DNA of 64,000 nucleotides from Trileptium ribeirensis. Taxonomy: Eukaryota > Nematoda > Enoplea > Enoplida > Thoracostomopsidae. The stretch is taken from positions 1 through 64,000 of the forward strand of contig JASANE010028077.1 of NCBI GenBank assembly GCA_030248225.1. Reading direction: 5' to 3'. The stretch's first letter is position 1. The number at the start of each line of letters is the position of its first letter. Both the position numbers and the translations under genes were made by a program. Shown in pieces: positions 20,550-64,000 of this stretch. The notes beneath the pieces were generated by a model. That model saw only the letters and a list, made by a program, of their open reading frames with translations. It searched no databases and was not told the origin of the DNA.

Positions 20550-20804
20550 AATCTTTTCTACCAGAAATCGGGGTGAATGTCACGGTCCTAACAGACGGGT
20601 AGGGCTTTTCTTATGCTTATCGGGGTGTTCAGGGAGTCGTACTTATTCGCGGGTCTGGTATGGCAAGAGCTCACCAAACCCGAACGTTCCTACATATAAA
20701 AATACTAATTTATGTGCGCTAAATCGCTAATTCCTCTCTAAAAACCAGCCTAATAAAAACGGGTTACTCAAGGACATATTACACCTAAACAATTGGAGAC
20801 CCCA
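20550..20804. other. Spacer up to transposon element 1
   Basis: No gene is seen. Ordinary AT-rich sequence lies between the hairpin cluster and the left inverted repeat of element 1. Confidence 0.4.
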
Positions 20805-21150
20805 GGGCAAAAAGTAGCTATTTAACATTTCACAACTTTGAGACAAAAAAATTTTTCATTAGAAATTTTTGCACATGATAACAAAACTTGTGTTGTCAGA
20901 ACATAACATACTACATATCGTTCAGTATTTTTGTAGGGGTCTAATTTTCACCCACAACACCCTGTTCCGGAACTACACCTAACTTAATGTGGAAAATGTC
21001 AATTAGCTACTTTTTGCACTGGAGCCAAATGTATCTTCATAAGGTTCTTTTGGTCAAAAAGCAGCTATTTAACCAAAAATATCCTTAATAATGATGATAA
21101 CATCAAAAAACAGTACTAACATGGCAGAAGTCCGTCAGGCACAGTAATTG

Positions 21151-23734
21151 TCAATCAGACTCTGAGGCGACATCATCAGCTCCTTGTATTGCGGTGTAGA
21201 AGCTTCGCGCATAGCGGTCGACATATTTCAGTTGTTTCTGCAGGTCCACCAGCTTTTCTTGTTTGACTGCCCGTCCGGCCGGCTTCTTCACCACCTCCAG
21301 TAGGTCGCCAAGCTGGTCGCCGATCCCTGATGGAACCCGCTTTTTATGTCCACCGTCTCCCACGGTTCCGCGGTGTTCAGTGAAAGACGGTATTTGAACT
21401 GGCCAAAGGTATCGACCATAACCCAACGCACATCCGCCTTAAACGGCACCTTTTCGCCTGCCGTGTTCTTGACGCGACGAATTAATCCCAGCTGTTTGGC
21501 CAGTTGCTGGATATCGATGATGCCGTGGGCGGCGTTGACGACATGAAATGGGTTTTTCGTCTGTGCCTCGGCCATAATATTGCGATATTCATCTGGGAGC
21601 AAGACTTTTTCCCGCTTGCGTACTACTTGTTCGATATGGCCGAAATCGCGATCACTGTCTAAGCGAGAATGTCCAATCTCCGGAAACTTGTGTTCGATGA
21701 CGTCGAATCGACCGATGCGAATAAGGTACTGCCAAAGTACTATGATGTAAAAGTTTTTATTTTGGCCCGAGCAGGAATCTGTCCAAGCCACCAGCCGCCT
21801 ATGATGTCGAAAGGCATCGTCTTCGGTGAATATCAGCACCCCAGATGCAATTTCTGACGCTCCCCGACCGAATTCATTTTCCGTCCAAGTGTACATATAC
21901 CCTCGACCCCGGTGCCGGTACTTACGTCGACGGCGTGGATGCCAAGGTTGTACAGCCATAGCTGAAGCAAATAGAACGCTTCGGGCACAGCCAGCTTTGG
22001 CAACGGAAGGGTCTTCTGAAGGTCAAATGTAATAAATAAGCTGTCGCCACCAGCCGCTCGCGCCCGGTCCTGCTGCATCGCGTCATACGCCACCCTTGCT
22101 GCTTCGCAATGTTCCTCATACCCGTCACCTTTTGCTTCACAAACACTGCAGATGTCTGTCCGCGGATGGGAAAACGACAAGTTGAATTCCGTATTGAACA
22201 CTTCGGTGTAGTACCATAATGACACTGCATGTGGGTGCGCGTCCAAATACATCTTATACATACTGCTAATCGACAAAACGGGACTGAGATACCGGCGGAG
22301 GGGGTTTTTTGCTCTGGAATAGTGGCTTGCCACCGGCGGGAAGCTGGCTATATGATCAATCACAGTTTGACGAACTTCTTTTGGAACGCGATTGGGTCGG
22401 TTGGCATGCTTTCCCGTTGCTGATGGTAGTAGAGCCGGGTTACCCTTTTTGATTGTGGCAGAGCGGATTTTTTTGATGGTGGCAGTGCTAATGGCGAGAA
22501 GTCGAGCGAGGGCCGGCTGACACACTGCAAATTCTTTGTCGCCAATAGTAACAAAACTGTGCCAAGTACCCGTTCTGATTGGCTCATCTTTTTTTGTTCG
22601 CTTCACATCTTGCCGCCGTTGAGTTGAATAGACAAATTGACGTTTCCCGTTCTTGTCAAGTTCGTGGTGGTAGTAATCGAAGATCGCCTGTCTCATTTCA
22701 CTGTCGATCTTGGTGTTGCATTTGTGGAAGCACTCTTGTCCTTCACAGAGAGGAATGTTCATTGGAGCCGTCTTTCCGGCGATTTCCTTGCCTTTCGCAT
22801 TACAGTGCGGAAGGCCCCTTTGTACAGATTCCCGAAGCAAATTTTTCTTCCAACGAGTCGGATCCCGCGCCCGCTTTCGCGCACGACCACGTGCGCCACC
22901 GGTACCACCTTCGTCATTGTGACCGCTGTCGTCATCTGGACCACCGTCACCCGCGGGACCACTTTCGTCATCTGGACCACCGTCACCCGCGGGACCACCA
23001 TCACCCGCGGGACCACTGTCGTCATCTGGACCACCATCACCCGCGGGACCGTTCTCGCGCGAGAGCTTGTCGCCACCACGGCGACGTCTGGCGATGCGGC
23101 ACCCCTTGCGTCGCTTCCTTGGTGGTGTAGGAAGATACTCCGAGTCTGAGCTAGATTTACTAGAGCTAGACTGCGTTGCTTTTCGTGGCAGTGCTGTGAA
23201 CCGCTGGGAAGTGAACGGCGCCTTGTCAACCATACTGTCATAACGATGTATCTGCATTCCACCTACGTAGATAGCGCCGCCATCGCTGTCGTTGTCGTCT
23301 TGATCATCGGCGCTAATGCGGCCGTCGCTGAGGCCGTCGATACTGTTCGACACAATTGATGCCAAGTCTACCACCTTGAGCGAGGCTGACAATGTTGTTG
23401 CAATGTTTGATGGGAGCGTCGGTATTGCTTTCAATGTGTCAATGATGTCATATCGAGAAGTTTCTGCGTCGTACCAAATTAAGCAGTCGATTCCGTGTTG
23501 CATATTTTTGTTCCGGACTCGGAGCAGTCGAGGAAGATGTTTCCCGTCGAAGGGAATCAGGGACGATTTTGCTACGTACATGTAGGTGTCATCTCCGAAA
23601 TAATAGATAAAAACTTCTCCATGCTTTTTAGCGGGTCCTTTATAGGCGCTACCTTCAGGTTCGATGCTGACGGGCAAATGCGTGCGTGCCAGGCACGAAT
23701 GCCAAAATAATGAGCCGATTTTATATGCCATCAC
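21151..23734 (-). pseudogene. PWWP-domain putative transposase, RNase H-like core
   Basis: The frame 23734-21833 gives 633 residues; the reading then passes to 21959-21288 and to 21426-21151 through two single-base frame changes (about 21900 and in an A-run near 21345). Order: a PWWP-like domain at residues 4-63, a Ser/Asp-rich linker, basic clusters (RKRRK at 206-210), a Gly-Pro-Asp repeat at 228-280, a Cys-containing region at 330-342, a helix-turn-helix-like segment near 404-424, and a CSVC motif at 529-532. A probable RNase H fold follows: Asp571 in ITFDLQK, a second Asp in AWTDSCSGQNKN, and Asp residues in SRLDSDRDFGHIE. This matches a family I recall as a domain of unknown function (DUF7869-like) found widely in invertebrates. 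It would cut and join the ends of element 1. The two indels may be decay or sequence error. Confidence 0.8.
22879..23055 (-). repeat. GC-rich coding repeat (Gly-Pro-Ala-Gly-Asp-Gly)
   Basis: Alternating 'ccgtcacccgcgggaccac' and 'tcgtcatctggaccac' units, 15-18 bases each, encode GPAGDG and GPDDDS blocks in the element 1 protein. All steps are multiples of three, so the frame is kept. Confidence 0.8.
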
Positions 23735-24077
23735 TATATATTACACTTTTTATTACGATCTACTACTATTTAGTGCTCACACAGATATTATTTCTAAACA
23801 CATGTTTTCTATTTATGGTTCGAACCCAATGATTTTGAAGGGAAACAACAATTTACACGTAAAAAACTGGTCTGGCGGTGCTACTTTGCTTTGGTTTTAA
23901 CCCAGCCATTTTTAAATGGCATATTTTGTATGGCGAATGCATGGTGTGTATTGGATTTAACCTAGCTACATTTTCAATCAAAACTATATTCCTAGATCAT
24001 TGGGTTCGATATTGTCATTATTATATTTATTTATATCTATTGCATTATATATAATAATTATTTTTATCTTTTTAGTA

Positions 24078-24240
24078 TATTATGAGTTATATATATTGTG
24101 AATCATTGTCGTTGAGAAGCCGACGATTTGTCAAAGTATGAGTTATAAGTTGCTGATAATTGTCGCTCAGAAGCCGACGAGTTGTCCAAATATGAGTTAT
24201 AAGTTGCTGATCATTGTCGCTCAGAAGCCGACGAGTTGTG
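24078..24240. repeat. 54-bp tandem repeat, about three copies
   Basis: ATTGTCG recurs at 24105, 24159 and 24213, each followed by a GAAGCCGACGA block and separated by 'atgagttataagttgctgat'. It lies in the untranslated part of element 1, upstream of its gene (which is on the minus strand). Confidence 0.85.
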
Positions 24241-24640
24241 AAGGCCGTGAATTAGCCTGGCGTATGCTATAAATAGTAAAACAAACAAATTCTTGGTTGG
24301 AATTACAAATATATTAAACTTAAACGTTAAATACTGGCGTTTCCGAGGTTCATCATGTTTTAATAATAATAATATATTAGTTTAATATTATTATAAACTG
24401 TCTTGCATAGATTTGGAATTGTGAATGTTGCATCTGCGTAGGGCAAAAACTAGCTATTTAACAAAAACTTTGACAAATAGATGCTTTTTGCACTGAGGAC
24501 CCATTGGAAATTCACCAGTGCAAAAAGTAGCTATCTAACGTATTGTCACATAGCTACTTTTTGCACTGAGCATAGTCTTCATTATGTCAATTAGATACCA
24601 CTTCTCGATTCGAATTTCTGCAAATAGCTACTTTATGCCC

Positions 24641-25019
24641 TTGAAACCATGCCCATGTGAAAGAGCGTAAAAATATGTATAGTAGGATATTTAAGTCAAA
24701 ATAACCAAAAATGTCAAATAGATATTTTTTGCCAAATAAATATCAAAGGTACACCAAAATATAACAATAACCATAGAAATAACATGAAAATCCAATGGAA
24801 TTACATAAAGATGTGTGCCTTTATGGTCGTAATCCACGAAACGAAATTGGTATAAATATGGTATGATGAATATATATACAGGTAGAACAATACACATACG
24901 ATTAAGGGTACAAATCGGATATACGGAATCGATATAATAAAGTTATCAATCCGAATATGTGTGTTTAAGAAAAACGATATGAATGGGTATATAACAATCG
25001 AAATGATCACGGTGATAAC
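24641..25019. other. AT-rich spacer, no supported gene
   Basis: Two overlapping hydrophobic frames on the minus strand reflect ATA-rich composition only. Confidence 0.4.

Positions 25020-26327: not shown

Positions 26328-26411
<84 letters not shown>
26328..26411. repeat. (TA)n microsatellite, left of hAT-like copy 1
   Basis: An almost uninterrupted TA run. It continues as (TA)n at 27586-27642 on the far side of the element, as expected if the element entered a TA microsatellite. Confidence 0.95.
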
Positions 26412-27582
26412 CAGGGAGTAACCGGAATTCCGGTTCCGGTTCCGGCGAAAATCGTGTTCCGGTTGCGGTTCCGGCAAAGGGCAAAAACCATACCGGAACC
26501 GGAATTCCGGTTTAAAAATTTTGTTTGAAATTTTCCACGTTTTTTGCTTCATCCTGTAATCCAAACATATGTAATATATTATACAATGATCAAGCTCCAA
26601 TACAACCAAGCAAAAGAAAAGATTAACTAACCAATTTGCCCTGTGAAACGTAAGTAGGGCACATAATTTGAGCAGGAATTTTTCATAATAACCTGTAGCA
26701 GTTTGTTAAATCAAAGCCAGGTCGATGCTTGTAGCAGCTATTTTACACATCCAGAAGTCTGTGGGATACGTTTGAATTAAACCGGTCCAACTCGCTAACA
26801 GAGTATGGCTTACGCAGAAGTACTTAGGGTATGCTTGGCTAACATAAATTGCGTCAAGCACCCGCCAGTGCGCTTGTAAACTCGGTAAATCAGTCTAAAT
26901 TGAAGTAAACTAACATTATCTGCAACGCAGCTAGAAACTGCTTTCTTGGCAATGAACTGTATTTATTGTAACTGTGCGAGCAGTATCACAGTGTGTCTCA
27001 TTTATAGCATTCTGATTAGAAAGTTATTATCATTATGCTCTAACTGACGGGCACTGTTTGTCCAACGCTAGCCTAACCAGTGTCTCTGACCACTGATCAG
27101 AAAATTACCTTCTAACTATTATTTTCTCTTAGAATCATATAAACCAATAATTTTAAGTTTCCTACAGAAGAACATGCAACAGACGTATGTGTAGTAAAGG
27201 GAGGCGACTGGAGACAGAGCGAAAGTGTGTATTCTACGCTCCTACCTTTGTAAGCACATTCGATTTGCTGCAGTATACGCAATGGTGTATAGTGGAAGAC
27301 ATTTTGTGCTCTGAATGTCCAAAAACCGACATATTTGATCGATAAATAAATATTATTAGCTTCCTCAGTCTTTAAAGTTTCAGAAAGGCAATAATACCAT
27401 CGCAATACATTAAGTTTAATGTAAAAGTTATTTTTAATACATTTTAAATCCACTATACCTTAATTTCTTCCGTCATCTGTTTTACTATATATAAATTTCG
27501 AAGACTAGGTTCCAGTTCCGGTTTAAATGGACGGTTCCGGTTGCTGGTTCCGGTTCCGGTAAATTTCGGTTCCGGTTATTCC

Positions 27583-27585
<3 letters not shown>
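26412..27585 (+). mobile_element. hAT-like non-autonomous element, copy 1
   Basis: The left end reads CAGGGAGTAACCGGAATTCC and the right end in reverse reads CAGGGAATAACCGGAACCG. Both are followed by iterated TTCCGG/CCGGAA. Flanks are ATATATAT on both sides, consistent with an 8-bp duplication though not provable in a TA repeat. 1174 bases with no gene. Two other copies are at 34924-36597 (interrupted) and 60429-61768 (inverted). CAGGG ends and 8-bp duplications fit the hAT superfamily. Confidence 0.8.

Positions 27586-27642
<57 letters not shown>
27586..27642. repeat. (TA)n microsatellite, right of hAT-like copy 1
   Basis: A pure TA run directly after the CCCTG end of the element. Confidence 0.95.
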
Positions 27643-27646
<4 letters not shown>

Positions 27647-28886
27647 TGATGTACTCTAAATAACCAACAGGTGGCATTTGTTTAGCATACGAAAAACCAA
27701 TATACCAATATAACTGATGTCTTGTCCGAAATTATAATACATAAGTAAACAAATACTTAAACAATTTGGGAATCTGGTTCATTGATCATACTCTAGATAA
27801 CAAAACCACCGTGTTCGACACGCTTGATAACCCAGATAACCCAGCAGATCCTTATTTGACATCACAAACACACTAATAATATAACCAAATTTTAAAATGT
27901 GTTAGCTCTGGTACGGGGTCAACACACCATATTGGGCTTACAGAGGACCAGCCGATGGTTCCACAAATACCGTGATGAACTGATTCCGGATACAGATCTC
28001 CTTTACAAAATGACGCCTTTATCTCGACATATGGACTGCGACATAGGTACTAGTATGGCCAAAATTAGCAACAAAGTGCCCTTAAAACAGTAGTTGATCA
28101 TTTTTGGCTGGGAAGGTGACGTAGAAGCTACTAGCGTTCAGCTAAAGTGCACATCATGATCACTTTTCCATGTAACAAAAAATACCGAAATCCATTAACC
28201 TGAGAATATGTCATATAAAAATAACACGATACTCAATAAAATTTTTTTTACAATTTTCTCTGCAGCGCATACAGTGGAAACTCTTCTCGCTCCGTTTCAA
28301 AAATCACTATAATACATGTCGTAAAACTGCTCAATAATTCAAAAATACTGTTCGTGCGCGAAGTCGCTACTTGCTACTCTTGCCACGCATCGGAAAGGAA
28401 ATTGATCTACCGAATTTTAACCACATCCAATTTTTCCTCTTCCTTGATCGGATTTCTCCTGTTTTCCCTGTATTAGCTGTTAAATTACCCATTTTCCTGA
28501 TTTCTATGTTTTCCCAAGTCGCGCGAGAACCCTGACATTATTGTAATTGCCACAATGGCTGACAACTCATGGCTAACAAGACTGAACTTTCCGGTTTTTT
28601 TCTAATGAGGTAGCACAACTCAAACTGACCCTAGTCCGAGCGCGACGGAGTTGCTGCCTGGATAGCTTGCTGCCCTGGCACGAGTATTGCATATCCTTTC
28701 TCAGTGTAGTATAAAATGACGTCCAAGCACAATACTTAAGTACGCAGGCCTATAGCAAAAAACTATAAAGATAAATGCCAAACGTTTGACCACAATCTAT
28801 GCACTATTTCCGAACAAAAAATGACACAATTCAACAAAGTACTACGGGTTGGGGTGTCACTACGTGATATTCATTTGTGAAACAGC
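27643..28886. other. No supported gene
   Basis: A short dispersed block near 28262-28300 resembles (inverted) 32188-32226: 'ttttgaaacggagcga' followed by 'agtttccactg' and 'gcgct'. The rest is plain AT-rich sequence. Confidence 0.4.
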
Positions 28887-29610
28887 TAGAGGTGAGATTT
28901 TAAGCCCGTAGCCCGGCCCGGCCCGCGTTTCGAAACGGGCCGGGCCGGGCCTACTTTTTCAGAAAAAGCCCGTTTAGGCCCGTTGGAAAACACAATCATT
29001 TTATACATTTTATGTGGTGATGGTCAGTCACCAATGTTTCCAATTATAACTTAGATTCGAGAATTTGGATCTCAACTGCCTGGCGCCACTCATATGGACG
29101 CATGTTATTTGTATTTTTGGGTGGGTTGAGCTTTTCGTTTTTATCTTGTGTGTGTATGTTATGTTGTGTCTGTGAACATGTTGTGAACATGTTTTGCACT
29201 AATTTAGAGTGAATCGGTTTCAAAAGCACCAATATACGAATTCTAATTGGTTATGAGTAGTTGAAACTGTCACGAGTAGAGGGTACCATTTTATAAATTT
29301 GGAGAACCCCAGGGACCCCACCTTTGATACACTCCGTCATTTGATTTCAGTCCTCAACATCGAATGCAAATTGAAAGTGTCATATAAACAGTTTATTTAA
29401 ATTAAAACTATGTGTTTTTCATTAAATTAAAAAAATGGAAAACGGGCCTAAACGGGCCGGGCCAACCTTATTGGCTAACGGGCCGGGCCGGGCCGGGCCT
29501 GCTTCAGTGTTTAACGGGCCGGGCCGGGCCTAAATTTTTTCGACACGGGCCGGGCCTAACTTTCTTGTCAACGGGCCGGGCCTGAAAATCCAGGCCCGTT
29601 CTCACCTCTA
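28887..29610. mobile_element. hAT-like MITE with GGGCCGGGCC iterations
   Basis: The ends are TAGAGGTGAG (28887-28896) and CTCACCTCTA (29601-29610), a perfect 10-base inverted pair. The flanks GAAACAGC at 28879-28886 and at 29611-29618 are a perfect 8-bp target duplication. Inside both ends AACGGGCCGGGCC-type units are iterated about ten times in opposing orientation. 724 bases with no transposase, so it must rely on enzyme made elsewhere. Confidence 0.92.
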
Positions 29611-29618
29611 GAAACAGC

Positions 29619-32600
29619 CTTAGAACTGAAGAAAAAATTTCTAAAACAGGTCAACAATGTTTCAATATACTTCATCATACAAACTAAATAGAAACGCCAT
29701 GCAAAAGAAACCAAATCAAACTATCCTGCGGTAACTATACCTTTATATAGTGACGAATAATTATAATTTTTGAACTCCGAATGATAAAGCATGTCAATGA
29801 ACATTGTTGGAGTTCCATATACAGCTGTGCATCTAAAACGAAAGTACAATGCTCATATATTACGCATGGTCAAAATTTTACTTAGATATTCCAAGCGCAA
29901 AACTGACTGCAATAAAAAGCTGGTTGCATTTTTTGTGAGTTCTCAGTGTTACATCTTGGGTGGAAACAACTAAAATTTGGCTACAACAGAGCCATTACAA
30001 CACCGTACTGAAACGACCTCTGCCAGTTAGGTATTCGCTTGCCAAAAAAGCGGCAATCTTTCTGGTGCGTAGGGTACGTCAGAACAGTAACTTCAATTCG
30101 ATTATTGCAACTGGTGGAACTTACTAAGTCCAAATGGCCAGCGCAGTCAAAATACAGTAGTGGGTTTGACTGTGGTGAACCGCCTAAAACAGTGGTGCGG
30201 CTGGACCAGTCCGCATCGCAAATCATTTCGCCCGGACCAGTCCACCCTTAATTTAGAATATTCTGAATAAATCAAAAATAATTTGTCAGTTCCACTTACG
30301 TTAACTTTTTCTCTAACTGATACACGTTTCTTTTCATGACACTAAGAGCAAGAAAAAGAAAAACCTCAGGCTGATGTTTTCAAACGCAATATTAAAATAT
30401 TACAGTTTACATTATAATTAAGGTTATCGTGTTACATATACAAATATATTGGGACGTAACTGCTGCCTACAATAAAATTCTGTAACGCGGACCGCTATGC
30501 AGCTGAGTTAACTAAATTTTTAGTTAACAGTATGTTTTTATTTAGTCACATATAGGATTAAGAATGAAATGAAATCTATCCGCCGTCCGAAAGGTAACAG
30601 TAATAATACTTTGATCATAGTGTAATTACATTTGAATTTAAATCATTGCATAAGCTGCGTTACCGGGCTCCACAAGTACGTAGGGGGGCTGGCATTATAA
30701 AATGTCCACCGGTTCGTAACCCCTGGAAAAAATTTTGGACTCATCTGGTTCATCGCCACTTGGTCAAAATATTTTTGTTTCCGCTCGTTAAAAACACTAC
30801 CAAATGACATACAATTTGCACAAAAATTTCGTGCCGACGACAAAAATTTCGTGAATTTTGTCAAAAGTTTTTTCAAAATGGCTTTTTTCGCTCTTTCAAA
30901 ACGTATTGGAGGCGCTTCTGATACGATTTTAACCGTTTTTCTCCTGTAGAAATGCCCCCGCCAAAAATTTCCCACCCACTAGTCCGAACCTAGAGAGGGG
31001 CGGTTCATGAGCCGTGGCAAAATTTTCAGCGACCGAAGAGGCCAAATTTATATCATCTTATTGCGACTCCAGAACACCCGAGGCGGCAGAGGCACCGTTA
31101 AACAGTAAAAAAACATTGCAATACAGAGGTTATTTTCATTGAATGTTTGGTTGTGTTTGCTTCAACCAAGAAATCGGAGGTTCTACACCTTAGCAAAAGT
31201 TTATAAATTGGACTGCACCCCAAAATCGGTAGCTGCGAGAGGCTTGTGTGGCGCCACAGTGACACCTTCTGGAAACTGGGTAACCACAGTCCAAAAACAG
31301 GGGGTTGGTGCAAAACCATGTTCGGCAGTTTTCCATGATGATGGGGAATATGGTGAGCGCCCTGCTATTCTTTAGTTTTCTATCACCTAGTAGTATTAAT
31401 TAATCAGCTAGTATTTACTAAGATGCTAAATAATTATTGTCAAAATAGGGATCGCTGTTGACAAAATAGGGTCCTCCATTTAACCACACTGCTCAGGAAG
31501 CCATTTGACATCATAGACTGAATCTGGAATACGGCCGGTCCGGAGCGGCCTATCTTGGACAGGTCTGGACGACTTCTGTCAAATGAAACTGCATCACTAG
31601 TTGTAACTCTATTTATTTGCTCCTCGATCGATATTCGCTCACTCGAAAAGGAGGCCGTAATGTCTGACGCGAAATCTCGATTAGCAGTACAGCTTTCAGT
31701 AACTAGCAATAACCTAATCGTATGGCACATAATTTAATGTCAAAGAGAGTAATTTGTGATATATTCATTTATTTAGGCACTAAATATTATCATCATCTGG
31801 TCCACACGATGTCTATTTCCGACTGCAAGACTAAAATAATATTTTATTGTAATAATGGAGTTATACATTACACTACACACTTTTCTTGCTGAATAGCTTG
31901 TAGGCAAGGCAAAGCTTGGAACGACGCCGACGGGAATACTGATGTTGCACCAGTGATAGCTGAAGAAAGACTGGCAAGTACGCAACCGAAACAGTGATAT
32001 AGCGGAGGAGCACAGCATATTACATCTTTCTGAAACAAACATATTATTGCTAAAATATCTTTAAAGCAAAGCTTTCACCCAATAAATTTTAACTAGAGGA
32101 AAAAATGCCCTATACGGGCAAGAAAACGAAATGCTTATAAATTTGAAAAGTGCTGGAAAAATGCTATTTTATTATTATCATTGAAACGGAGCGACCGAAG
32201 CGAGCGGAGTTTCCACTGAGGGCGCTAGGGAAAAAATAGTGTAAATTTCTTTTTTTGCCCGTTGCTATCATTCATGATAAATTTTCGGATGGACGGATTT
32301 CAACAATTTTGTTTAACTGCAAAAGTAATGACGAATTGCTCTTTAGTTGAACGCAAACTGCTTCAAACCCATCTTCCTGGTCAAAAACAGGGTTTTAAGA
32401 GTTCTTTGCCTAATCTGGCCGTAAATGCAACAGTGTTTCGCAGCCCATATCGCTGGACATAGGACTCGCATCGAAAAATGAGACCTCCAGCATAAGGTCT
32501 TTTGGGTCCACAGGTGGGTCTGAACCCAAATATTTTACGTCGACCCAAAGATTTTATGCTGGACCCACGGCAGTTTCGGGTTCGGAGGCATAGGATCAGC

Positions 32601-33627
32601 TAATAAATTCTATTACAAAGTGCAGGCTTTCAGCCGCTTGTCCTTGTATATAGTTGCTTCCTGGTAGTTTCATAAAGATTTTTTGTGGGACCACTCTCTG
32701 GCCGTTGTAGGTCCGAATATGGTTAGTCGACCCTTGCCAGAAATAGCAGTTATTCAAATTTCGCAGTGTTATCGCTTGTTTTTACATAACAATAAGTACC
32801 TATTAGGTTATCAAGCATGCTGGGTACGGTGCTTTTGCTATCGAGAGTCCAACTTGACTATACTGTACCTTTTTATGGGGTTGCAAGGGTATTATTACTG
32901 TCGACGTACAATTTCAAAAATATATTTGTCTATCTTTTGTGGGCACGGCATCAAGAATGGTCTATATAGGTATTTCTAAAGGCTGAATACATTGATTTGC
33001 TTATCTAGATTCCATCATCGGTCATATTTCCTGCCTTTGAATGGATTTAGGGTTGATGTACCGATTTTCCAGAATATAGTCTGTCTTCAATTGTTTGGTT
33101 ACGTATTGGTTACATGACAACATTCTCTGTATAGGTTGTCTAGTAGGCTGAATACGATGATTTGGTTATCAGAACGTAGTGGAGATTATGTGTTGCATGT
33201 GTGAAAGCTTTTAAATTCCGTCTGTGATGCTCATAATGCGCGTGAAAACTCAAGATGACTCCGCCAACCATTGTATTTTGTATTTTTGAATAAAATTTGT
33301 AACGGAAAGCTTTTTGGTCAATTGAAATTAGGTATAAAACTGTTCGCGAACACAGCGCTAGCTCACAATTTTGTGTTCGCGAAAATTTAAGTAAAATTAC
33401 CCAAATTTTTGAGAACGGAAATTTGTTGATTTGATTGTGACGTCACATTTGCATTAAATTTGTTCGAGAACACTGCATAATCCAAATTTAAATGATAATG
33501 CATTTGGGAACAGAATTTCTGCAAACTGAAATCGCCAAAATTCTGTTCGAACACAAGGTCTAATTTCTGGCACTTGAATTTGGTTTTGGCAATTTTCGGT
33601 TTGCGAAAAATCGAATGAAATTAAGCC
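29619..33627. other. Long region without a supported gene
   Basis: Frames of 60-110 codons occur but none resembles a known protein. 32183-32230 has 'gaaacggagcgaccgaagcg' followed by 'gagtttccactgagggcgc', a dispersed phrase also seen near 28290 and 59030. 32505-32580 is an imperfect palindrome built on 'gggtctgaacccaaa' and 'tttgggtcgacg'-like arms. Confidence 0.45.
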
Positions 33628-33988
33628 TGTTTTCCGTAACAAGGATTTGCGATTCGATATCGGTAATGACAGAATAGGATTGTTGGGCGGTTTCACCTAA
33701 AGCTTACTCACGCATTATGGCACGTTGACCTTGCGCTACTAATGTTGTGGCCATCACCAATATTGGTAAACCAGCAGCCACGCCGTCACAGGCACCTTGT
33801 AATAAAAATACAGACCCGGCCGAAATTGACTAACTACGCATTGCATTGCATTGAGTAACATTGCCAATTTTCGGTTAGAAAAAACCCGAATGAAATTTAG
33901 CCTGTTTTCCGTAACAAGGGTTTGCGATTCGAATAGGATGGTTGGCGGAGTCACCTTAAGTTTACTCATGCATAACTCGGGAACGACT
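33628..33988. repeat. Two copies of a short dispersed repeat
   Basis: A block starting GTTTTCCGTAACAAGG, then 'tttgcgattcga' and 'tcacc..aagtttactca', occurs at 33628-33719 and 33903-33988. A third copy (35084-35160) interrupts the hAT-like element at 34924. The third copy's clean presence within that element shows it moved after the element did. Confidence 0.75.
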
Positions 33989-34329
33989 TAACCGATTTTC
34001 CCGATCTTGGGCCCACTCGAACAGGTATATTCGATTTACGGTGTACATCCCAGAACGCTTTTCATTTGGGGTCTGGTTCCGGGATCAAAATTGATTTTTT
34101 ACCCCATTTTAGTAACCTTCATTAAACCAAGGTTATTTTTATCTTAACTTTCAAATTTTTTTCTCTGGTTGGTTTTATTAATAGTAAAATGACAAATGCC
34201 GATGCCACTTTTCTTGTTTTTCGAGTAAGGTTCCGGTGCTGCAGTTATGTGGTTTGAGGTATGGCACCCTCATGGTTCCTCGACCCAAAATTAGAAAATT
34301 TGCTCTGATGTGCTGGGCGGCTGATAAAT

Positions 34330-34922
34330 TTCCCTAGAAAGTTTTCGGGCATGGGAAACTCATTGCAGGCGTTGGTTTTACTCTGCGACCAATGGTTCAT
34401 GGTTCCATCGGTACGGGGCTATGGTGCCCCCTTGTTTCAGGGTCAAAGGTCAAAAAGAGGTTTTTACACCATTTTAGTGTTCTTCACGGAAGCAAGGCTG
34501 AAAAGTTTCGCTTGGGAGTTTTCGGGCATGGGAAACTCATTGCCGTATTGGTTTTACTCTGGGACCCATGGTTCCATGGGTACGAGGATATGGCGCCCCC
34601 TTGGTTCAGGCCAGAGATCAAAAAGATGTTTTTACACCATTTTAGTAACTTTCGCGGAAGCAAGGTTATTTTTATCTTAGCTTTCGAATTTTTCTCTGGT
34701 TGGTTTTATTTCCGATGCCTCTTTTTTGTTTTTCGATTAAGGCTCCGGTTCATCGTGTTTGAGGCATGGCACGCTCGTGGTTCCTCGACCCAAAAGTCGA
34801 AAAATTGTTCTGACGTCCTGGACGGCTGAAAATCTGAAAAGTTTTACTTGTTGTTTTATGGAATAGGAAACTCACTGCCAATGTTGATATTGCTCTGCCA
34901 CCCATGGTTCCATGGATACGGG
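34330..34922. repeat. 185-bp tandem repeat, two clear copies and one divergent
   Basis: GCATGGGAAACTCATTGC recurs at about 34350 and 34535, each followed by 'ttggttttactctg', a 'ccatggttc' block and 'tttttacaccattttagt'. A weaker copy begins near 34860. Open frames across it are by-products of the repetition. Confidence 0.75.
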
Positions 34923-34923
34923 G

Positions 34924-36597
34924 CAAAGAATAACCGGAACCGAAATTTACCGAAACCCAAAACCAGCAACCGGAACCGTCCATTTAAACCGGATGAGGGA
35001 ACATGGTATTCGAAACTTATATATAGTAAAACAGATGAAGGTACAATGGGTTTAAAATGTAGTAAAAATAACTTTTACATTAAACAAGGGTTTGCGATTC
35101 GATATCGGTAATGACAAAATAGGATAGTTGGCGGGGTCACCTTAAGTTTACTCACGCATTAATGCATTGCGATGACATTATTGCCCCTCTGAACGTTTGA
35201 AGAGACCGAGGAGGCTAATATTTATTTACCGATCAACATATCGGTTTTTGGACCCCAGATCAAAAATGCCTTTCACTATAAATCCTTGCGTAAATTGCGA
35301 CAAATTGAATGTGCATGTAACGCATGGAGCATAGAGTAGACTTTGCTCGGTCTCCAATAGCATGTCTTTGGTAGACAATCATGAAATTATGGGTTTACAT
35401 GGTTCTAAAAGAAACTAAAAGAAGGTACTCTATAAAATTCTGATCAGTTGTAGTCAAAGACATTGTTTAGGCTAGCGTTGGGCAACCAGTGCCCATCAGC
35501 TAAATGATGATGATGACTTTCTGATCAGTATGGTATAAATGGGACAAACTGTGATACTACTCGCACAGTTTCAATAAATGCAGTTCATGGCCAAGAACAC
35601 AGTTTCAGGCTGCGTTGCGAGTATCAGGGTGGCCGCTGGGCCCTCGAGGTAAAATTCAGGGTTTTTCAGGGTCCTCAACCGTGAAATTCAGGGTCATATA
35701 TAATGTGATCGTAACACTTTTAGCTTGGGGCACGAAAAAGCTTGCAACAGCCCTCTGAGATGCAGCTGCACGTTCCATGTTCTGATGTGCTTTCGAATGT
35801 TCTGATGGCTGCGTAAATTGTCGAGATCGCCTTTGGAAATGTTGATTTCCTTGCAACAATAATTGCATTTTGCAAAGAATGGACGTCCCGGTACAGCTGC
35901 GACCCATTTCCCAAACTCATCATGCTTAGTCCAAGAAAACTGAAATTCCCGGTGGATTCACACGTTCTGCGATGAATTGATTTTTTATCGTATTAGAAAA
36001 GCAAAAATAAGCATGGACCCGCGAAGTTTGTCTTGGCATCAATGAATGAAGATTATGTGGTTGGGATGGAGTCAGCAGCATTGTGCACGATTCAACTAGC
36101 TATGCATTGTACGCCAACGCTGCTGCAAACGGGAGGACAGTGAGCCGGCAGGCACTGTAGGGGACGGCTAAATTAACTAAATTTCGACAAGTCCATGCTT
36201 ATAAAATTCGATGCTTTATTTTCAGGTTTTTAGTATTCTATCTTGATCATACATAGGGTCATTCTGCTCAATCTGCTATGTTCGGCGCAGACATCAATCT
36301 TCTATTTCTTAGACCTATTTTCATGGGTTTTTCAGGGTTTTTTGGCCATTTCAGGGTTTTTTCAAATTCAGGGTTTCTCAGGGTTTTTCAGTGTTTTCCA
36401 GGGCTGCGGCCACCCTGGAGTATATGTTACTTTGCTCCAATGTAAACAGATTTACAAAGTTTACAAACACAATGGCTGGTGCTTGACGCAATTTATGTTA
36501 GCAAAGCTTACAGATTAGTATTTCTGAATAATCCATATTCTGTTATATACCGAGTTGGGCCATTTTAATTCTAAAATACACAACAGACTTCTGACAG
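34924..36597 (-). mobile_element. hAT-like element copy 3, interrupted twice
   Basis: Matches copy 2 (60429 onward) from AGAATAACCGGAACC through 35083. It resumes at 35161, is broken again at 35625, and resumes from 36418 to about 36597. The first break is a 77-base dispersed repeat; the second is a complete small transposon. The far end is missing. Confidence 0.75.
35625..36417. mobile_element. Nested small transposon with CAGGGTGGCC ends
   Basis: The left end CAGGGTGGCCGC and right end GCGGCCACCCTG are inverted with one inserted context base inside. Flanks are GAGTAT at 35619-35624 and 36418-36423, a 6-bp direct repeat. Comparison with copy 2 of the host element gives the uninterrupted order. 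'aaattcagggtttttcaggg' phrases are iterated at both ends. No gene. CAGGG ends suggest hAT, but a 6-bp duplication does not fit hAT well. Confidence 0.8.
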
Positions 36598-36830
36598 GGC
36601 AAAAAGACGTAGGTGTACCTATGCTTCACCACGTTCTGCAATCTCGATAGAGTCACTAGTCTAAGTTCAGCACGAGTATGTTATGCCCTTTAAGACGTTT
36701 TTATTGGGTTTAGGGTCAATGAACTCGATTTCCAGAAAATAGTCGTGAGTAGTTTGGTTCACGGAATCAAAAATAGTCTATATGGGTCATTTCATGAACC
36801 CATGTACTTTTGAAACACCATTTTTGAAGC

Positions 36831-42174: not shown

Positions 42175-44351
42175 TAGTTGACTGTTTAGTCTATAAGTGA
42201 AGGACACAAAATTAAGTTTTCAGCTGAGCCATGACACGAGACGTTTCGACGAAGTTGTAAGTTTGAGTTATGGGGACCGGTAGCCGCAAATTTTACAAAA
42301 AGAAAAGTAATAATTCTTCGCTGACTATCAGAATTCAGTAGTTATGAACACAAACACTTGCAGCTATCGACGCTCGATACTCACAGTTTTCTCGCCCAAA
42401 GCTAGCACCATTATTTCTGGCAAGTATTGTAGTATCACTGGTCTATTAAGTCTAGCAACACCTTATACCAGGCAAAAAAGCTGTGAACATGTCTTACAGA
42501 AGTGAACTGAATATTGACAGCGTCGTCAGACTGTATCGCGGGTGTAATTTCGTCTAAACGATGGCGCGATAAAGAATCGTCAGCTGCAAAAATATCGTCA
42601 AAATTCCAGCACCCCCTGAAAAATTATGAAACTAAACAAACATCTTAACCACAAATGTAATGTAACTGCAAAAAATTGAAAATTACGTAGTTATCAGGGA
42701 GTAATCGGAATTCCGGCTCCGATTCTGGCAAAATTTGGGTTCCGCTTACGGCTTAAATTCTTGTAGGAATAGAAGTCCCGGTTTCATATCTTTCGTATAT
42801 CTGCATGGCGTATTGTCTAATGATGGTTTCCATTTCTAGTCAAAATTAGCTAACTGAAACAATATTCTTAATGACATTTGTATAACATAAAAACGAAACA
42901 AATTCCATCTTTGTGTTCTCTCAGGTACCTTTGATTCGCTCTTTTAATTTCCTAATGCACATTTATCTCGACCTTTATTAAACAGTTTATAGGGCACAAA
43001 AATCACGCTAACCAGTCAAACACTAGCATATTTACAGTTTCCTTAGTACTGCGCAGTCCAGGATTTATTAACTATACCGTTATTAACCTTACAGTCCAGG
43101 GTTATTTCACGCTACGATGACCTTTTGGTCGGGGGGTAAAACTGGATATTTTGGCCAGTAGCACGTAAACGTGCAGGGAAATGGTAAAAATGTTATTTGC
43201 GCTAAGAAGCGTCATTAGTTAGCTAGTTCAAACAAAAAAAATTTCGGCTTCACGCACGCCGTAAGAGGCTGGACATCCACATATGTCCCAAATTGACAAA
43301 AATCGTAATGACTAATTTTTCGACCTCTTTTTTTCGGGTAGTGACGTGGCTCCGTGCTCGTAGTTATGGCCCAAATTCTTTTCTATGCAGGATTAGTCAG
43401 GTCTACACAACATTTTTAATTGCACGATTTTCAAATCTACTCCAATCATGGAGAGTGACAGCTGTCGATATGGCATGAACCCCAGTTTTACCCCCCCCCC
43501 CGACCAAATTCCTTTTTTGGTCATTGCTCGTTACTTATGCATGGTACATAAACGTTGTTCATATATCATACCTGTCCTCTGGATGCCTTTTGAAAAAATA
43601 TTAACCCAGGTGCTTGCTGTTACTTACCCCAGCGCTAGGGTCAAAAGATCGATTTTAGCACATTTGATTACCCCCCCCCCGACCGTTGCTAGTTAGGGGT
43701 ATCGTGGAGTCAGTAGAAGTCAATTAATTTCTCTGTTATGGTTCTTTCCAATCACGAAGCGAATGGTGAAACGACCTGATCTCTATCTCGTTCCCGACCT
43801 GTTGATCTCAGGCTTTTACCCACCCCCGACCACACTTTTACCCCCCCCCCCCCGACCACCACCAAAATGTGGAAAAATCGAACATATGATGTTATTTCGA
43901 GGAAATTTCACGCTTTTGGTTCATAACACATTGTGGCAATACATTTCGACGACATATGTCGCAAAATTATTTTTTGAAAAAATTTTAAATTTACCCCCCC
44001 CCCCGACCATGGTATCAGGCATGTACACTGGCAGTTGACATGGGCTGCCATTTGGTACCCCTCATAGTGGAAATTGTGATATAGGACTGTGTTTGAATAA
44101 CTTAACCATTCGTGCCCTATTATAGGCTCACAAAGATAGTATTAGTGTAATAAAGTATATAATTTACGTATAGTATTAGTAGTAGCGGATATATATGACA
44201 TGTCTTCGGATGACAGTGACTACCGGCCGCAACAGTCTAGCGAGGACGAACCTTGTAGCGATGGCAGCAGCAGTCAACCCGGCCCATCTTCCGGGCACCG
44301 GCGACTTCGCATCAGATTTAAACCACCGGCAGCAAAGAAACAATATTATGG

Positions 44352-44500
44352 GTGAGATTAACATTTTTTATTTCACAATTGATTTTTTCAGTGTAACTGT
44401 GCGTGACTGTCGCTTTTTTAACTGTAGCTTTTTTCAGGATAAACGAACACATGGATATTATTGTATTGTTATACTTAATTTAGCTTGTTACATATTGCAG
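44352..44500 (+). other. Intron 1 of element 2 gene
   Basis: Starts GTGAGA and ends TTGCAG after a T-rich stretch. Removing it joins two open frames in phase. Confidence 0.7.
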
Positions 44501-44672
44501 AAAGCGGATCAGTGGCGAAAAACTGGAACAGTGGAAAGAAAGTGAACACATTCGCGAAGGTGCCCGAAAGAAGAAAAAAATTGAGCAGCCCGTCACTGAA
44601 TTGGATCCGAATACACTGGCCAAACGTCGGGAAAAGGGAAGACTCAAATACGCAAGACGGATGGCGAAGCAA

Positions 44673-44807
44673 GTGAGGCTCGATCAATTTTATAACAATA
44701 ATGTCTGGCGGTACCTGATTACATTGCCGTATTATTGTCGTTAACATAACATAATCTCATATTTTTAGAATGCTATTTACTTTTTTCGGCTTGTTGGTTA
44801 TTTATAG
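44673..44807 (+). other. Intron 2 of element 2 gene
   Basis: Starts GTGAGG and ends TTTATAG after a pyrimidine-rich tract. It lies between codons, so the frame is unchanged. Confidence 0.7.
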
Positions 44808-44903
44808 GGAAAGCTCGTCAAGCACCAGAAGGCAACGGGAAATCAACAGCATTCGTCAGCAGCTGATTCAACAACAACAGTGCCGTCGGTAGCACGGGAC
44901 ACG

Positions 44904-45455
44904 GTGGCGTCGTCTGGTAGCGGGGCAGTGGCGTCGTCTGGTAGCGGGGCAGTGGCGTCGTCTGGTAGCGGGGCAGTGGCGTCGTCTGGTAGCGGGGCAG
45001 TGGCGTCGTGTGGTAGCAGGGCAGTGGCGTCGTCTGGTAGCGGGGCAGTGGCGTCGTGTGGTAGCGGGGCAGTGGCGTCGTCTGGTAGCGGGGCAGTGGC
45101 GTCGTCTGGTAGCGGGGCAGTGGCGTCGTCTGGTAGCGGGGCAGTGGCGTCGTCTGGTAGCGGGGCAGTGGCGTCGTCTGGTAGCGGGGCAGTGGCGTCG
45201 TCTGGTAGCGGGGCAGTGGCGTCGTCTGGTAGCGGGGCAGTGGCGTCGTCTGGTAGCGGGGCAGTGGCGTCGTCTGGTAGCGGGGCAGTGGCGTCGTCTG
45301 GTAGCGGGGCAGTGGCGTCGTGTGGTAGCGGGGCAGTGGCGTCGTGTGGTAGCGGGGCAGTGGCGTCGTCTGGTAGCGGGGCAGTGGCGTCGTCTGGTAG
45401 CGGGGCAGTGGCGTCGTCTGGTAGCGGGGCAGTGGCGTCGTCTGGTAGCGGGGCA
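44904..45455 (+). repeat. 24-bp coding minisatellite, 23 units
   Basis: Exactly 552 bases made of 24-base units of the type GTGGCGTCGTCTGGTAGC plus GGGGCA, encoding VASSGSGA. Variants are confined to a TCT/TGT (Ser/Cys) change in a few units and one GGG/AGG change. Such uniformity implies recent expansion. Confidence 0.97.
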
Positions 45456-47979
45456 GTGGCGGCTGTTATGGCTGATAGCGGTACGGCAATAACACCTAGA
45501 CCATCTCCTCTACGACGAATAGGGACAAGTCAATATTGGCGTAATCGGCGCGCCAGTGAAATGCGATCGCTGAGGCAGCAGATGGCACAGATGAAGCAAC
45601 AATTGAAAGCAGCGAACCTACGATACTACAAGGCAACTCGGAAGTTGTCGCGGTCACGTTCAAACACGTCGTTCTCCAGTGGCGACACAAGTGGTAGTTT
45701 TTTGTCGCCTCGCTACGCATCGACGCCGTATGATTGCGGCGGTCGTGACGCCGATCGCCATGACGATGATAGATACGATTGTGATGGCCTGCATGAAGAT
45801 AGCCGCGATGATAGTAATTGCGATCCTGCTGATGACGAGTTAACGCCTGGCAAGGCAGCACGGCTGATCATGCAGAAATCCCCTCGTACAATAGAACGAA
45901 CATTGACCGGGGCGCGTAGCCGGCGACAGAAGCGATTCCTGACGCAGTTTATGTATGTTCTGTTTGAGAAATTCGCGTCCGAATACCCCGACGTTAAAAT
46001 TGGCTATACCTCTTTCACTACGCTAAGGCCGAAACGCGTCATGCAGTTCTCTGAGTCCGATCGATCCGTGTGTCGGTGCATATATCATGAAAATTCACAG
46101 TACCAGCTTACAGCCCTGTTCAATATCGGTCTCGTTTCTACGAAAAGCTTGAACGTAGCAGTCGACGAAATGATTTGTCGCCGGGCATCGGACAACCCGG
46201 TCGTGCTGGAGGAAACCCCTCAGTGTTTTTGCGGCAGTGTGACCACTGCCGGTACAGCGACTTACATGGTTTGGTGACGGCCAGCGAGGCATCAATGGAT
46301 AAACCTGTGCACTGGGAACGATGGCGAACGGACCCCAGCGGCCGCACCGAGTTGCATACAGTCTCGATGACCGAAGATGACTGTCTTCAGGACCTCGTGA
46401 ATTATATGAATAGCCACTTTTTGCCACATCACTACCACACCATCATGCAATTCCGAGCCGTCAAAGCTATCAGGACTCTGCAGCCACCAGGAACACTTCT
46501 AATTCAAGCGGACTACGCGCAGAATTATGCCTGTTCGTTGCAGAACGCCATCTACGCTCATCATTGGCACCATCATAGTGTCACTTTGGTGCCCTTTATG
46601 AACACTTTCTATGGCCTTGCAGGTAACGCTAGTAGCGGCGCCGGTGAAAGTAACAACAAAAACGATGCAGCCGACGCGGCGGTGGCGCCGACCACCTCAA
46701 CAATGCCAGTCGTCCAGTGTGTCTCGCCGGTGGCATAGGTGGCCATGGCGGTGGTATCAAGGGTGCCTCAGTGGTGATACTTTGTGTGGCTGTGATACTT
46801 GAATGACTTAAAAAGTGAGAATATCTTACATACCGTTTTCAATGTAATGGTGGTTAAAGTAAAGTTTTTAAGCTATGCTGGTTAAACACGGTCGAATTGG
46901 CCATATCACATTTTTACCCCCCACCCCCGAACACATTATTTTTTTGCGAAAAATAGAGTGGATGATATGAAAAAGGCCACTGGGTGTTGTTTCTAGAATT
47001 TATGAGTGGTTTTGAACGAAAATAAATAATTACCCCCCCCCTCAACAAACTTTATCCCCCCCGACCACAAGCAACTTCCGGCATTCTAACATATCTGGCA
47101 ATGGGTATGTTGTGAATTTTTTTTGCATAACACTTCCCCCAGGCTAAACTATCGATATAAATAGCTACCGTTTATGGCCGCTTCGTTTCCATTTAATAAC
47201 CGGTATAAATCGGCCATGTTTTAAAAGTGTTAAATTTGACCTAAGAATAGGCATAAAAAGCTTAATTTTTGATATACGGAGTTCCGCATAACGTCATTTT
47301 GACCGCGCTGACGGGCTGCACGAGATACGATCACAAAATCGAGGCTAGATGCAACCTGGAGCATACCAGAGGCCATTTTATGGTACCTTGCGGAGCAGCA
47401 GGGGGTGGTATTTGGGAAGCCATAGCATAAAAACGGTTAAAAAATTTACTATAACGACCTCAAATTACGGATCCTTGATGTTTTTTGGTCATAGGGTGTA
47501 AAAATGAAGATAATCGGAGCCAAAAAAGTCATTAGTCATTTTTTCTGGGGCAAAAGGTCATCGTAGCGTGAAATGACTCTCCAACGATTCCATGTTAGTA
47601 ACTTACGACAAACTATACTGTCAATCAAGTGTCTTTATCAGTTAATTCGAATATACTTGTGAGACCATAACAAAGACCGCTTCGAGTATTCCATCTCGCA
47701 ACAGTAATTCACTCTGGCAGGAACTGGGGCGAGTACAGATAGTCTGTGTTAATTGACTTCCTAATACGAGGTTCGAAGCTGAGCTTCCTTCCAAAGATCT
47801 TTTAAATTTCCAGAAAAGCAATTATACATCCACAGCTCATTAAAGAAACAATGGCTGTAATTTTTAGCACACATTACTGGCTTCTCATAAGTGTCGAAAA
47901 GGCGTAGGCGGTGTCGAGAAACTGTCAATTCTTGCGAGATCTGTGAAATGTGTCCTTTTCAGTTATCCATAATACACGT

Positions 47980-61768: not shown

Positions 61769-62045
61769 TTATCTACTGAACCCTAATGGCCGCCTCGTCT
61801 CGCGGAAAGTTTGACGCCCTTAAATATTTAATTCTGATCCCAAGATATTTTACCTAAGATGGGTGTAAAATGCATGTTGCTTATTGCGCACATAAATCAC
61901 AAATAACGCTGTAATGCTGATGCATAAACCTATATATAAAGCCATACATACATACATGACGACACTTTTGTGCTATACATAATTATTTGCTCACTAGAAG
62001 TATATGCATAATATCAAAGCACACAATGAATAAATTGAAGGGTTC

Positions 62046-64000
62046 AGGGCAAAAAGGTGCTAAGTGCCATTTTTTGGAATTTTGGGATTTTTACACTATT
62101 TAGGTCCAAATTTCACGATCTTTCCGCTCAAAAAGGTGATAAGTACGTATTTCGCGTGGTTAGGCAGATACATACGGCAAAAACGAGGTAAGTACATAAT
62201 TTCGACAAATTTTCCGAGCAAGAAGGTGCTAAGTGCATAGACGTGTACTTAGCACCTTTTTGCACACGAAGTGTGAAAAGCCAAAAGGTGCTAAGTACAG
62301 AGAAATTCGTTTGCATTACTTTAAAGAAGGTCAATCAGCAAAATAAGCACAAAGTGTAATACATTTTGTTTCAGATATCAACTCATCTACGAAGACGAAA
62401 TGCCGACAATACCACCACAGAAACTACATTATTATTGAAATGCTGAACGTTATAGTTATAAGGAGCGCAGTACATTTGACTAAACTAGTGCTTCCACGAA
62501 AAGAAAACATAGCTACAACAAGCTTCTTGAACATATGTTTATCTGTTGCCTATGATTTGCTTTTGAATGTTTTGAGCTATTTGTTTGTTACGATGATTCT
62601 GCTTATGAGAACAAATGTACTTCGCTCCTCATAACATTTCAGAGTTTTTAAATAATAATGCCGAGTTTCATAATGCGCGATATTGTCTGGGTCAAATGGC
62701 GGAAAATCAACTACCCTTGCTACGTCTGCAACCTCTCGACGTTCGTTGGAAAACCGCCCAAAGGAAAAATCCTGGTCGAATTCTTCGGTTATACCAAAAG
62801 TCCATACGCGTGGGTACTCCCAAGGCAAATAGTGGCTTTCGAAAACTGCCAAGTTCGCTCGTTCCTCCAAGATCGTCGCGTATCCAAGTGCATTGAACAC
62901 TTGAAGGATTTTTGTCTGGATGAGGGTGGTTACGACTCTCTTCTCGCAGTTTTGGACGCCAACGCCTTGCTTAACGATTTGATAGGAACTGGTGCGGCAG
63001 GTGGTGAAAATGACGTTCTCGCGATAGACATCAGCGACCCTCATGAAAGCAAAGATGAAGCGGATGCTACTGCTAATATCAGCATGGGCATTCTTCCTGC
63101 TGGCGGGCAGGACCCGGCGGAAACTCCAGCCTCCAGCCGTAGTCCATGCCGAACCCGGGAAACCTGCTTCACGACAGCTAACGAGGATAGCTCCGAGGTG
63201 TTAAGCCGTGGCCGTCACAGGATCAAACGAACTACAACAACAAAGGGGTTCCATATGACACATCGACCAGGTCCGCCCCCTCACAAGGAGCGCCGAACCT
63301 CAATTCCGCAACCCTGTAGTGACCAATCCGATGAATACATCCCTTCGCCGCCTCGCGTAGCTAGAAAGCGGAAAGGAAAGACGAGCTTTCATGCGACATC
63401 TTCACCGGTGCCGCGTCCAACAGTAACGCCAATCCCTCGTAGCGGAGATCCAGAATTTGAAGGTTTCGAGTTGACTGACAGCGAGCGCTATGTGGAAAAT
63501 AATACAAAGAAGACGACCCGTCGGCGATCTAGGAATCCAAAAGTTTGGCTGAAAATGTCCGCGCGGCTGCTTATAACAGCAGCGAAGCTTACGAAAACGC
63601 TAACAAAACGTTAATTCCTACGCAAGGAAATGCTGTCGGTAAGAACTTGTGCCACAATGATCATAAATCCTGTCGATTTAAATGCAATGACATTGACAAT
63701 GAATCCTGGACGCGCATTTTTGCGGAGTATTACAGCCTTTCTAAGTCGGCAAAAGAGATGTTTCTGTACGGCCTGCAAACCAAGACCGAAATTAAACGGC
63801 GACGAAAGGTTACTGCAAAGCCTCACAGTGCCAGCTGGTCCTACCATGTCACAGTAGACGGAGCACGACGAAGGGTTTGCCACTCCGCTATCTGCAAACT
63901 ATTGGACGTCAGCAATAAACGTTTCGAGACCTTGCGGAAGTAGTCCGGCAGCGAGGTTTTGCCAGTGGCCGATCTACGTGGCAGGCATGCAAACAGACCG
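62046..64000 (+). mobile_element. DNA transposon element 3, left part (runs off window)
   Basis: Starts AGGGCAAAAAGGTGCTAAGT. The motif CAAAAAGGTGCTAAGTAC is iterated at 62050-62068, 62129-62147, 62178-62195, 62219-62238, 62246-62264 (inverted) and 62282-62298. A plus-strand gene for a PWWP-bearing putative transposase follows. The opening bases AGGGCAAAAAG are the same as in element 1, but the iterated motif differs. The right end lies outside the window. Confidence 0.8.
62658..64000 (+). pseudogene. PWWP-domain putative transposase of element 3, partial
   Basis: ATG at 62658. Residues 6-66 form a PWWP-like domain (DIVWVKW, then VEFFGYTKSPYAWV). An acidic, then Ser/Arg/Lys-rich linker follows, including SDEYIPSPPRVARKRKGK, comparable to the SDSEYLPTPPRKRRK segment of element 1. 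The frame passes from 62658-63614 to that of 63545-63943 at about 63545. The second frame has a Cys-rich segment (CHNDHKSCRFKC) and a VCHSAICKLLDVS helix-turn-helix-like stretch, as in element 1. A TAG at 63941 interrupts the frame, but it continues in register to the window end with a HANRP segment shared with element 1. The RNase H-like core lies beyond the window. Confidence 0.75.

Follow-up and report, generated by a model that had tools for sequence, protein, structure and literature searches.

The 64,000-nt window analyzed here (positions 1 to 64,000 of Trileptium ribeirensis contig JASANE010028077.1) contains an element, designated element A, that is very probably a degraded DNA transposon with terminal inverted repeats (TIRs) and iterated subterminal repeats, whose gene encodes a protein of the Pfam family DUF7869, by prediction an RNase H-fold transposase of the DDD/E type (catalytic Asp, Asp, and Asp or Glu). 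The evidence computed here comprises the genomic copies of the element, their ends, the family assignment of the protein, its predicted fold, and its conserved acids. A previous annotation based on the letters of the window (the sequence-only reading) had proposed a complete transposon at 20805-24640, built around a PWWP domain protein and delimited by matched inverted ends. Its assignment of the gene as a transposase is supported by copies in which ends and gene recur together and by an RNase H-like predicted fold, and the family is indeed uncharacterized, being classified in Pfam as DUF7869 with no named function. The element is not complete, however, as the gene is broken by two frame changes and the right terminus is truncated.

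The inverted pair in element A is genuine, 20804-20823 and 24622-24641 being identical at 19 of 20 bases. Pairs of such quality at a spacing of 1-8 kb were observed with a mean of 0.05 per shuffle in 20 dinucleotide shuffles of the window, compared with 17 rows of pairs in the real window, 2 of which lie within element A and the remainder in other repeats, many of them overlapping. The right member of the pair is nevertheless internal, since homology to other genomic copies continues to 24732-24733, an edge found with all three aligned copies (C14796, C11986, and C591); position 24640 was therefore rejected as the right end. The left homology edge, at 20797, was determined against C14796, the only one of the three copies that reaches the left end. 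Past 24732-24733, the other copies extend for approximately 12 nt, ...GCCCTGGGGTCTTC in C11986 and C591 and ...GCGCAGGGGTCTTC in C14796, and the left terminus near 20795 reads GGAGACCCCAGGGC in element A and GAAGACCC.. in C14796. The complete terminus reads GAAGACCC(C)AGGGCAAAAAG or nearly so, and its outermost right bases are missing from element A. The terminal inverted repeats enclose the gene at the homology edges between copies. The motif GCAAAAAGTAGCTATTT, with up to 3 mismatches allowed, has 10 occurrences in the window where 0.37 would be expected; 8 are located within 20805-24640, the same number as previously counted, and another lies just beyond, at 24716-24732.

A search of the source genome (687,459,628 bases, 20,229 contigs) for copies with the same ends, a check that the sequence-only reading had suggested, yielded 30 matches among 26 candidates, counting the window itself. 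One full-length copy of element A (C14796, 88% identity) and three partial copies (C11986, C591, and C6852, 86-93%) were obtained. The remaining rows show 65-78% identity, mostly in the gene region, and two short matches correspond to end-motif stretches, one within the window (83%) and one in C11986 (70%). A younger, sharp-ended subfamily comprises five copies (L021-L025, in contigs C12404, C52, C259, C829, and C6192, respectively) with 95.0-99.1% pairwise identity over approximately 4.3 kb. These copies start with GAAGACACCAGAGCAAAAAGTAGCAGATCGACA and finish with its near-perfect complement, and their left flanks are distinct in all five cases. Both ends and flanks are present on the contig for three copies, with the outer left GA missing from L023; L024 continues beyond the end of its contig, and the contig of L025 ends exactly at the right terminus. 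Near-identical copies that break the assembly would be expected to leave contigs ending exactly at, or within, a transposon copy, as for L025 (C6192:1) and L024 (C829:1), so the true copy number may be higher. L021 contains a stop-free frame of 593 amino acids, and P0002, the closest homologue of the element A protein among the 120 of 137 homologues listed, matches L021, L024, and L025 in a single piece.

The tetranucleotide AATT, which constitutes 1.1% of 4-mers in the window, is found on both sides of L021 and L022, and GATT/AATT flank L026, a copy of another family. A perfect target duplication was seen in only two of the six copies with both ends readable. A 4-bp target duplication is likely, not proven, because the 4-bp length was chosen after seeing the data. 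L026 (C19973) represents a compact 2.87-kb family of the same design, with an open DUF7869 frame of 597 amino acids and termini GAAGAGCCCAGTGCAAAAA.

A second element in the window, element B, has the same design as element A and belongs to a different family. The sequence GAAGGGTTCAGGGCAAAAAGGTGCTAAGT at 62037 opens its six-copy cluster of a related motif, after which the PWWP gene follows; the gene matches DUF7869-family proteins up to contig position 65258, and the motif recurs at 65309 and 65520. The element B gene is also broken, as its reading frame shifts and a stop codon occurs at 63941. That one window holds two different families with a common architecture strongly indicates that gene and ends belong together. 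It also bears on a different explanation, namely a host PWWP gene family that was spread by segmental duplication and happens to lie between chance inverted repeats. The PWWP domain is mostly a host chromatin domain, as such an origin would suggest, but the iterated end motifs, the sharp homology edges at the same termini with different flanks (shared flanks were not seen), and the independence of the two families make this origin extremely unlikely.

The gene of element A is the only gene recognized between its ends, as proposed, but it is spread over three consecutive frames, which P0002 matches with 44, 60, and 48% identity; the alignment places the frame changes near 21.90 and 21.35 kb. 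The three-frame match indicates that either this copy is broken or the assembly contains indel errors, and element A, as read, cannot encode an intact protein. With residues 290-600 of the first frame as a query, 137 homologous proteins were obtained at E <= 0.001, 120 of which were listed; an earlier protein search, dominated by the low-complexity linker, gave 1 match from 8000 candidates. The homologues listed are mostly without a named source, and all those naming an organism are from insects, beetles and moths among them (e.g., Ceutorhynchus, Diatraea, Acanthoscelides, and Spodoptera). The element A protein matches Pfam DUF7869 (PF25273) with an E value of 1.1e-8 and 35.4 bits, above the cut-off of 26 bits, as do L021 (33.7 bits), L020 (45.2 bits), and L026 (32.7 bits). 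The same model is matched by all 54 members of the alignment A1 and by 51 of 67 other homologues. An HTH_psq domain was found in one homologue (E 3.1e-9), consistent with DNA-binding modules that can be exchanged. Matches to Pfam CxC3 (KDZ-associated) in one member each of alignments A1 and A3 (E 0.015 and 0.018) and to an IS481 transposase model of NCBIfam in a single member (E 0.012) were taken as chance. A sequence search of PDB returned nothing at E <= 1, comparison with viral structures gave no match at E <= 1e-3, and no relatives were confirmed in collections of viral contigs and genome contigs, from which records very near the window may be excluded.

The three motifs previously proposed to hold the catalytic acids (ITFDLQK, AWTDSCSGQ, and SRLDSDRDFG) lie on the minus strand and contain conserved Asp residues. 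The third position was assigned too narrowly, since in A1 the Asp of DSD and the Glu 7 residues downstream are equally conserved (54/54 each). The Glu (E541 in P0002) is at least as good a third acid, and the Asp of DSD as the sole candidate was rejected. By exact string match, FDLQ is present in the L020 frame and absent from those of L021 and L026.

AlphaFold2 models of two DUF7869 homologues, which superseded a Chou-Fasman estimate of secondary structure, contain an RNase H core with acids at the positions typical of DDE enzymes: at the end of strand 1 (b1), just after strand 4 (b4), and on the last core helix (aC), where both D534 and E541 of P0002 are located. The acid positions were read from the secondary structure of the models, and clustering of the acids was judged from these positions. 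For each model, all 50 of the 50 structural matches listed are DDE transposases or retroviral integrases, and the fold predicted here agrees with the one that the sequence-only reading had expected.

Several observations weigh against a DUF7869 transposase or against the proposed target site. The best Foldseek hit of the first model is weak (TnsB, E 1.9e-4), with Argonautes also listed, and the second model gave nothing at E <= 1e-3, HerA-NurA ranking first and Mos1 second. No Pfam transposase family was matched by A1 at E <= 10 among the 25 of 38 families listed. The sets of 54 and 89 sequences were chosen from 121 partly for the presence of the motif strings, and in the 121-row alignment, which includes truncated proteins, D410 alone is invariant, D492 is conserved in at least 90% of rows, and D534 and E541 in less than 90%. 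The matches of P0002 to L022 and to L023 are each split into three pieces, which makes these two copies look broken. Target duplications are absent from L009, L023, and element B (the right terminus of the latter was assigned by eye), and at the ends of element A originally proposed there was none beyond chance, 295 of 500 random placements being as good; the latter candidate was rejected. Finally, AATT is self-complementary and could be read as a part of the inverted repeat in L021 and L022, an interpretation argued against by the different tetranucleotides at L024 (AAAT) and L025 (CAAT) of the same subfamily.

DUF7869 might instead be a passenger or accessory gene of an element moved in trans by another transposase. 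Non-autonomous elements are common, and the gene is broken in element A and looks broken in element B, L022, and L023. Nonetheless, no other gene was recognized between the ends in element A, element B, or the L021-type copies, ends and gene recur together, and the fold predicted for the catalytic core and its conserved acids are characteristic of the mobilizing enzyme itself, so we regard a passenger role as improbable and retain the DUF7869 protein as the predicted transposase.

The match of element A to the proposed PWWP domain is weak (E 0.015, 16.2 bits against the Pfam cut-off of 25.6 bits). PWWP matches are present beside four DUF7869 genes of the source genome, two of them over the cut-off: element B (E 1.6e-6, 28.9 bits) and L021 (E 1.7e-10, 41.7 bits), where the domain occupies a separate open frame approximately 0.95 kb upstream of the 593-amino-acid transposase frame. 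A match under the cut-off (E 1.1e-4, 23.1 bits) is located at a similar distance, approximately 0.95 kb, upstream of a 629-amino-acid frame in L020, a related gene for which element ends were not identified. The PWWP domain of L021 and L020 is probably encoded by a separate exon that is spliced, element A having the intron-free form. No PWWP was noticed by eye in L026 among frames of at least 90 amino acids, and none was found in 121 public homologues (0/54 at E <= 0.01 and 0/67 at E <= 0.05, with 17 of the 137 proteins outside the scan), an absence that is weak because many of them lie on contigs of a few kilobases that would miss a separate exon. The PWWP region of element B had no match among 80 candidates from the protein database. 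The PWWP domain of LEDGF directs lentiviral integrase to marked chromatin, and the lineage in the T. ribeirensis genome may similarly have captured a PWWP chromatin reader that possibly directs insertion to marked chromatin.

Known superfamilies were compared with the elements described here on the basis of published descriptions and Pfam models, the comparison with KDZ, Novosib, Academ, Zator, Merlin, and Sola consisting of the Pfam model scan. Mariner elements have a TA target and a paired helix-turn-helix N-terminus, whereas the elements described here have AATT flanks, a conserved Cys/His N-terminus, and iterated subterminal repeats; identity to the catalytic domain of Mariner/Tc1 transposases (Mos1, SETMAR/Metnase) is 6-11%. 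The distance from the second D to E is approximately 36 positions in retroviral integrases and 49 positions here, and neither a reverse transcriptase nor long terminal repeats were detected alongside the gene. Like hAT, P, and MULE elements, the elements have short end motifs clustered close to each terminus, but no Pfam model of these was matched among the families listed. The C/DxxH motif of the hAT, P, MuDR, Kolobok, and Dada group is absent by eye from P0002 and the A1 consensus, where the position reads PExGH, although single members may differ. Published descriptions assign to Kolobok a TTAA target and C/DxxH between the second D and E (PMC9587614). CMCT (EnSpm, Mirage, Chapaev, and Transib) is described as carrying C(2)C and H(3-4)H in the interval from the second D to the last E, with mostly 5'-CA termini, and the fungal families of IS3EU as having TAYGG..CCRTA termini with a 6-bp duplication (both in PMC12730594). 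The elements resemble Kolobok in their 5'-RR..YY-3' termini (here GA..TC) and likely 4-bp duplication, and differ from it in that both ends of L021 and L022 are flanked by AATT instead of TTAA. C(2)C/H(3-4)H is absent by eye from P0002, and the terminus GAAG differs from those of both CMCT and IS3EU.

Catalysis, excision, motif binding, and target choice would, on this evidence, proceed as follows. The N-terminal conserved Cys/His region would bind the iterated GCAAAAAG-type motifs near both ends and bring the ends together. Two metal ions would be held by the acids D, D, and E (or D), with cutting at the GAAG terminus and joining to the target, apparently AATT, through staggered cuts of 4 bp, while the PWWP module may anchor the complex to chromatin and guide the insertion. 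The mode of transposition is most likely cut-and-paste.

We give close to an even chance to the proposal that DUF7869 proteins are the transposases of an undescribed cut-and-paste superfamily with GAAG termini and AATT preference, a lineage of which captured a PWWP reader in the T. ribeirensis genome; its novelty is a probability and not a finding. A realistic alternative, to which we assign somewhat under even odds, is that Repbase or Dfam already lists the superfamily and that the literature searched does not connect its name with DUF7869. The accessible parts of the papers by Kojima count 20-24 superfamilies of eukaryotic DNA transposons, some of them scarcely described (PMC12730594, PMC9587614, and PMC10045372), and the termini and likely 4-bp duplication are Kolobok-like in form. 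On the other hand, neither DUF7869 nor PF25273 was found in the literature searched, the termini or duplications described for Kolobok and IS3EU and the TA target of mariner do not fit, and no Pfam transposase model was among the 25 of 38 families listed. The features of both elements are collected in Table 1.

Table 1. Coordinates of the features of elements A and B in the window.
Feature	Position	Strand	Basis or remark
Element A	20795..24733	gene on -	Extent set by alignment to other genomic copies; right terminus truncated here
AATT adjoining left terminus of A	20791..20794		Sequence; identical 4-mer adjoins left end of B and both ends of L021 and L022
Left terminal inverted repeat of A	20795..20823	+	Inverted-repeat search and copy alignment
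Two left subterminal motif copies	21001-21017 (-), 21054-21070 (+)	within 21001..21070	Motif scan
A gene, third frame, C-terminal tail	21151..21345	-	48% identity to P0002 across 21345-21196
A gene, second frame, remaining DUF7869 catalytic core	21345..21902	-	60% identity to P0002
Candidate third acid: Asp of DSD (21651-21653), Glu of GHIE (21630-21632)	21630..21653	-	P0002 D534 and E541; counted by hand
Codon of proposed catalytic Asp 2 (AWTDSCSGQ)	21777..21779	-	Aligned to P0002 D492; place counted by hand
A gene, first frame, 633 amino acids, first ATG 23731	21833..23734	-	N-terminus resembling PWWP; linker of low complexity; conserved Cys/His region; catalytic strand 1
Codon of candidate catalytic Asp 1 (ITFDLQK)	22022..22024	-	Aligned to P0002 D410; place counted by hand
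PWWP-like region, residues 34-68	23531..23635	-	Pfam, under cut-off
Four right subterminal motif copies	24443 (+), 24475 (-), 24520 (+), 24548 (-)	within 24443..24564	Motif scan
Internal subterminal motif copy (right end in the sequence-only reading)	24622..24641	-	Inverted match to left end at 19 of 20 bases
Actual right terminal motif copy, lacking its outer bases in A	24708..24733	-	Motif scan and copy alignment
Element B, design as A, different family	62037..64000, on to ~65.53 kb of contig	+	Left terminus GAAGGGTTCAGGGCAAAAAGG; right terminus assigned by eye
Six B end-motif copies	62049, 62128, 62177, 62218, 62247-62263 (-), 62280	within 62049..62296	Motif scan
B gene, first frame with PWWP domain	62658..63614	+	Pfam E 1.6e-6
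B gene, following frame, where DUF7869-family homology begins	63572..64000	+	Stop codon at 63941

Other repeats were also observed in the window. An inverted-repeat element at 43098-47580 (30-nt arms, 93%) surrounds a plus-strand gene (44880-46277 onward) with SSGSGAVA repeats and a DYAQNY...QNAIYAHHW motif, which has no match to the 121 DUF7869 homologues; the right end of this element recurs, by eye, near 53.3-53.93 kb, indicating a repeated family. A third exact copy of CAGGGCAAAAAG is located at 36595-36689, with a span of 95 bp to an inverted TGCCCT, and is possibly a miniature non-autonomous relative or a chance occurrence. The region 26400-35240 contains several inverted repeats, some rich in TTCCGGTT, which is also found near 61.7 kb. 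An open frame at 1347-1961 contains a NADAR domain (Pfam E 7.9e-10).

These results suggest a likely biochemical function for a protein family filed as being of unknown function and point to a source of repeats that annotation could overlook or count as host genes. The 95-99% identity within the sharp-ended subfamily suggests recent movement, and at least one young copy (L021) retains a stop-free frame of 593 amino acids, which makes transposition testable. If encoded together with a DDE enzyme, a PWWP domain would represent a natural and self-contained counterpart of the LEDGF tether, of interest for targeted insertion.
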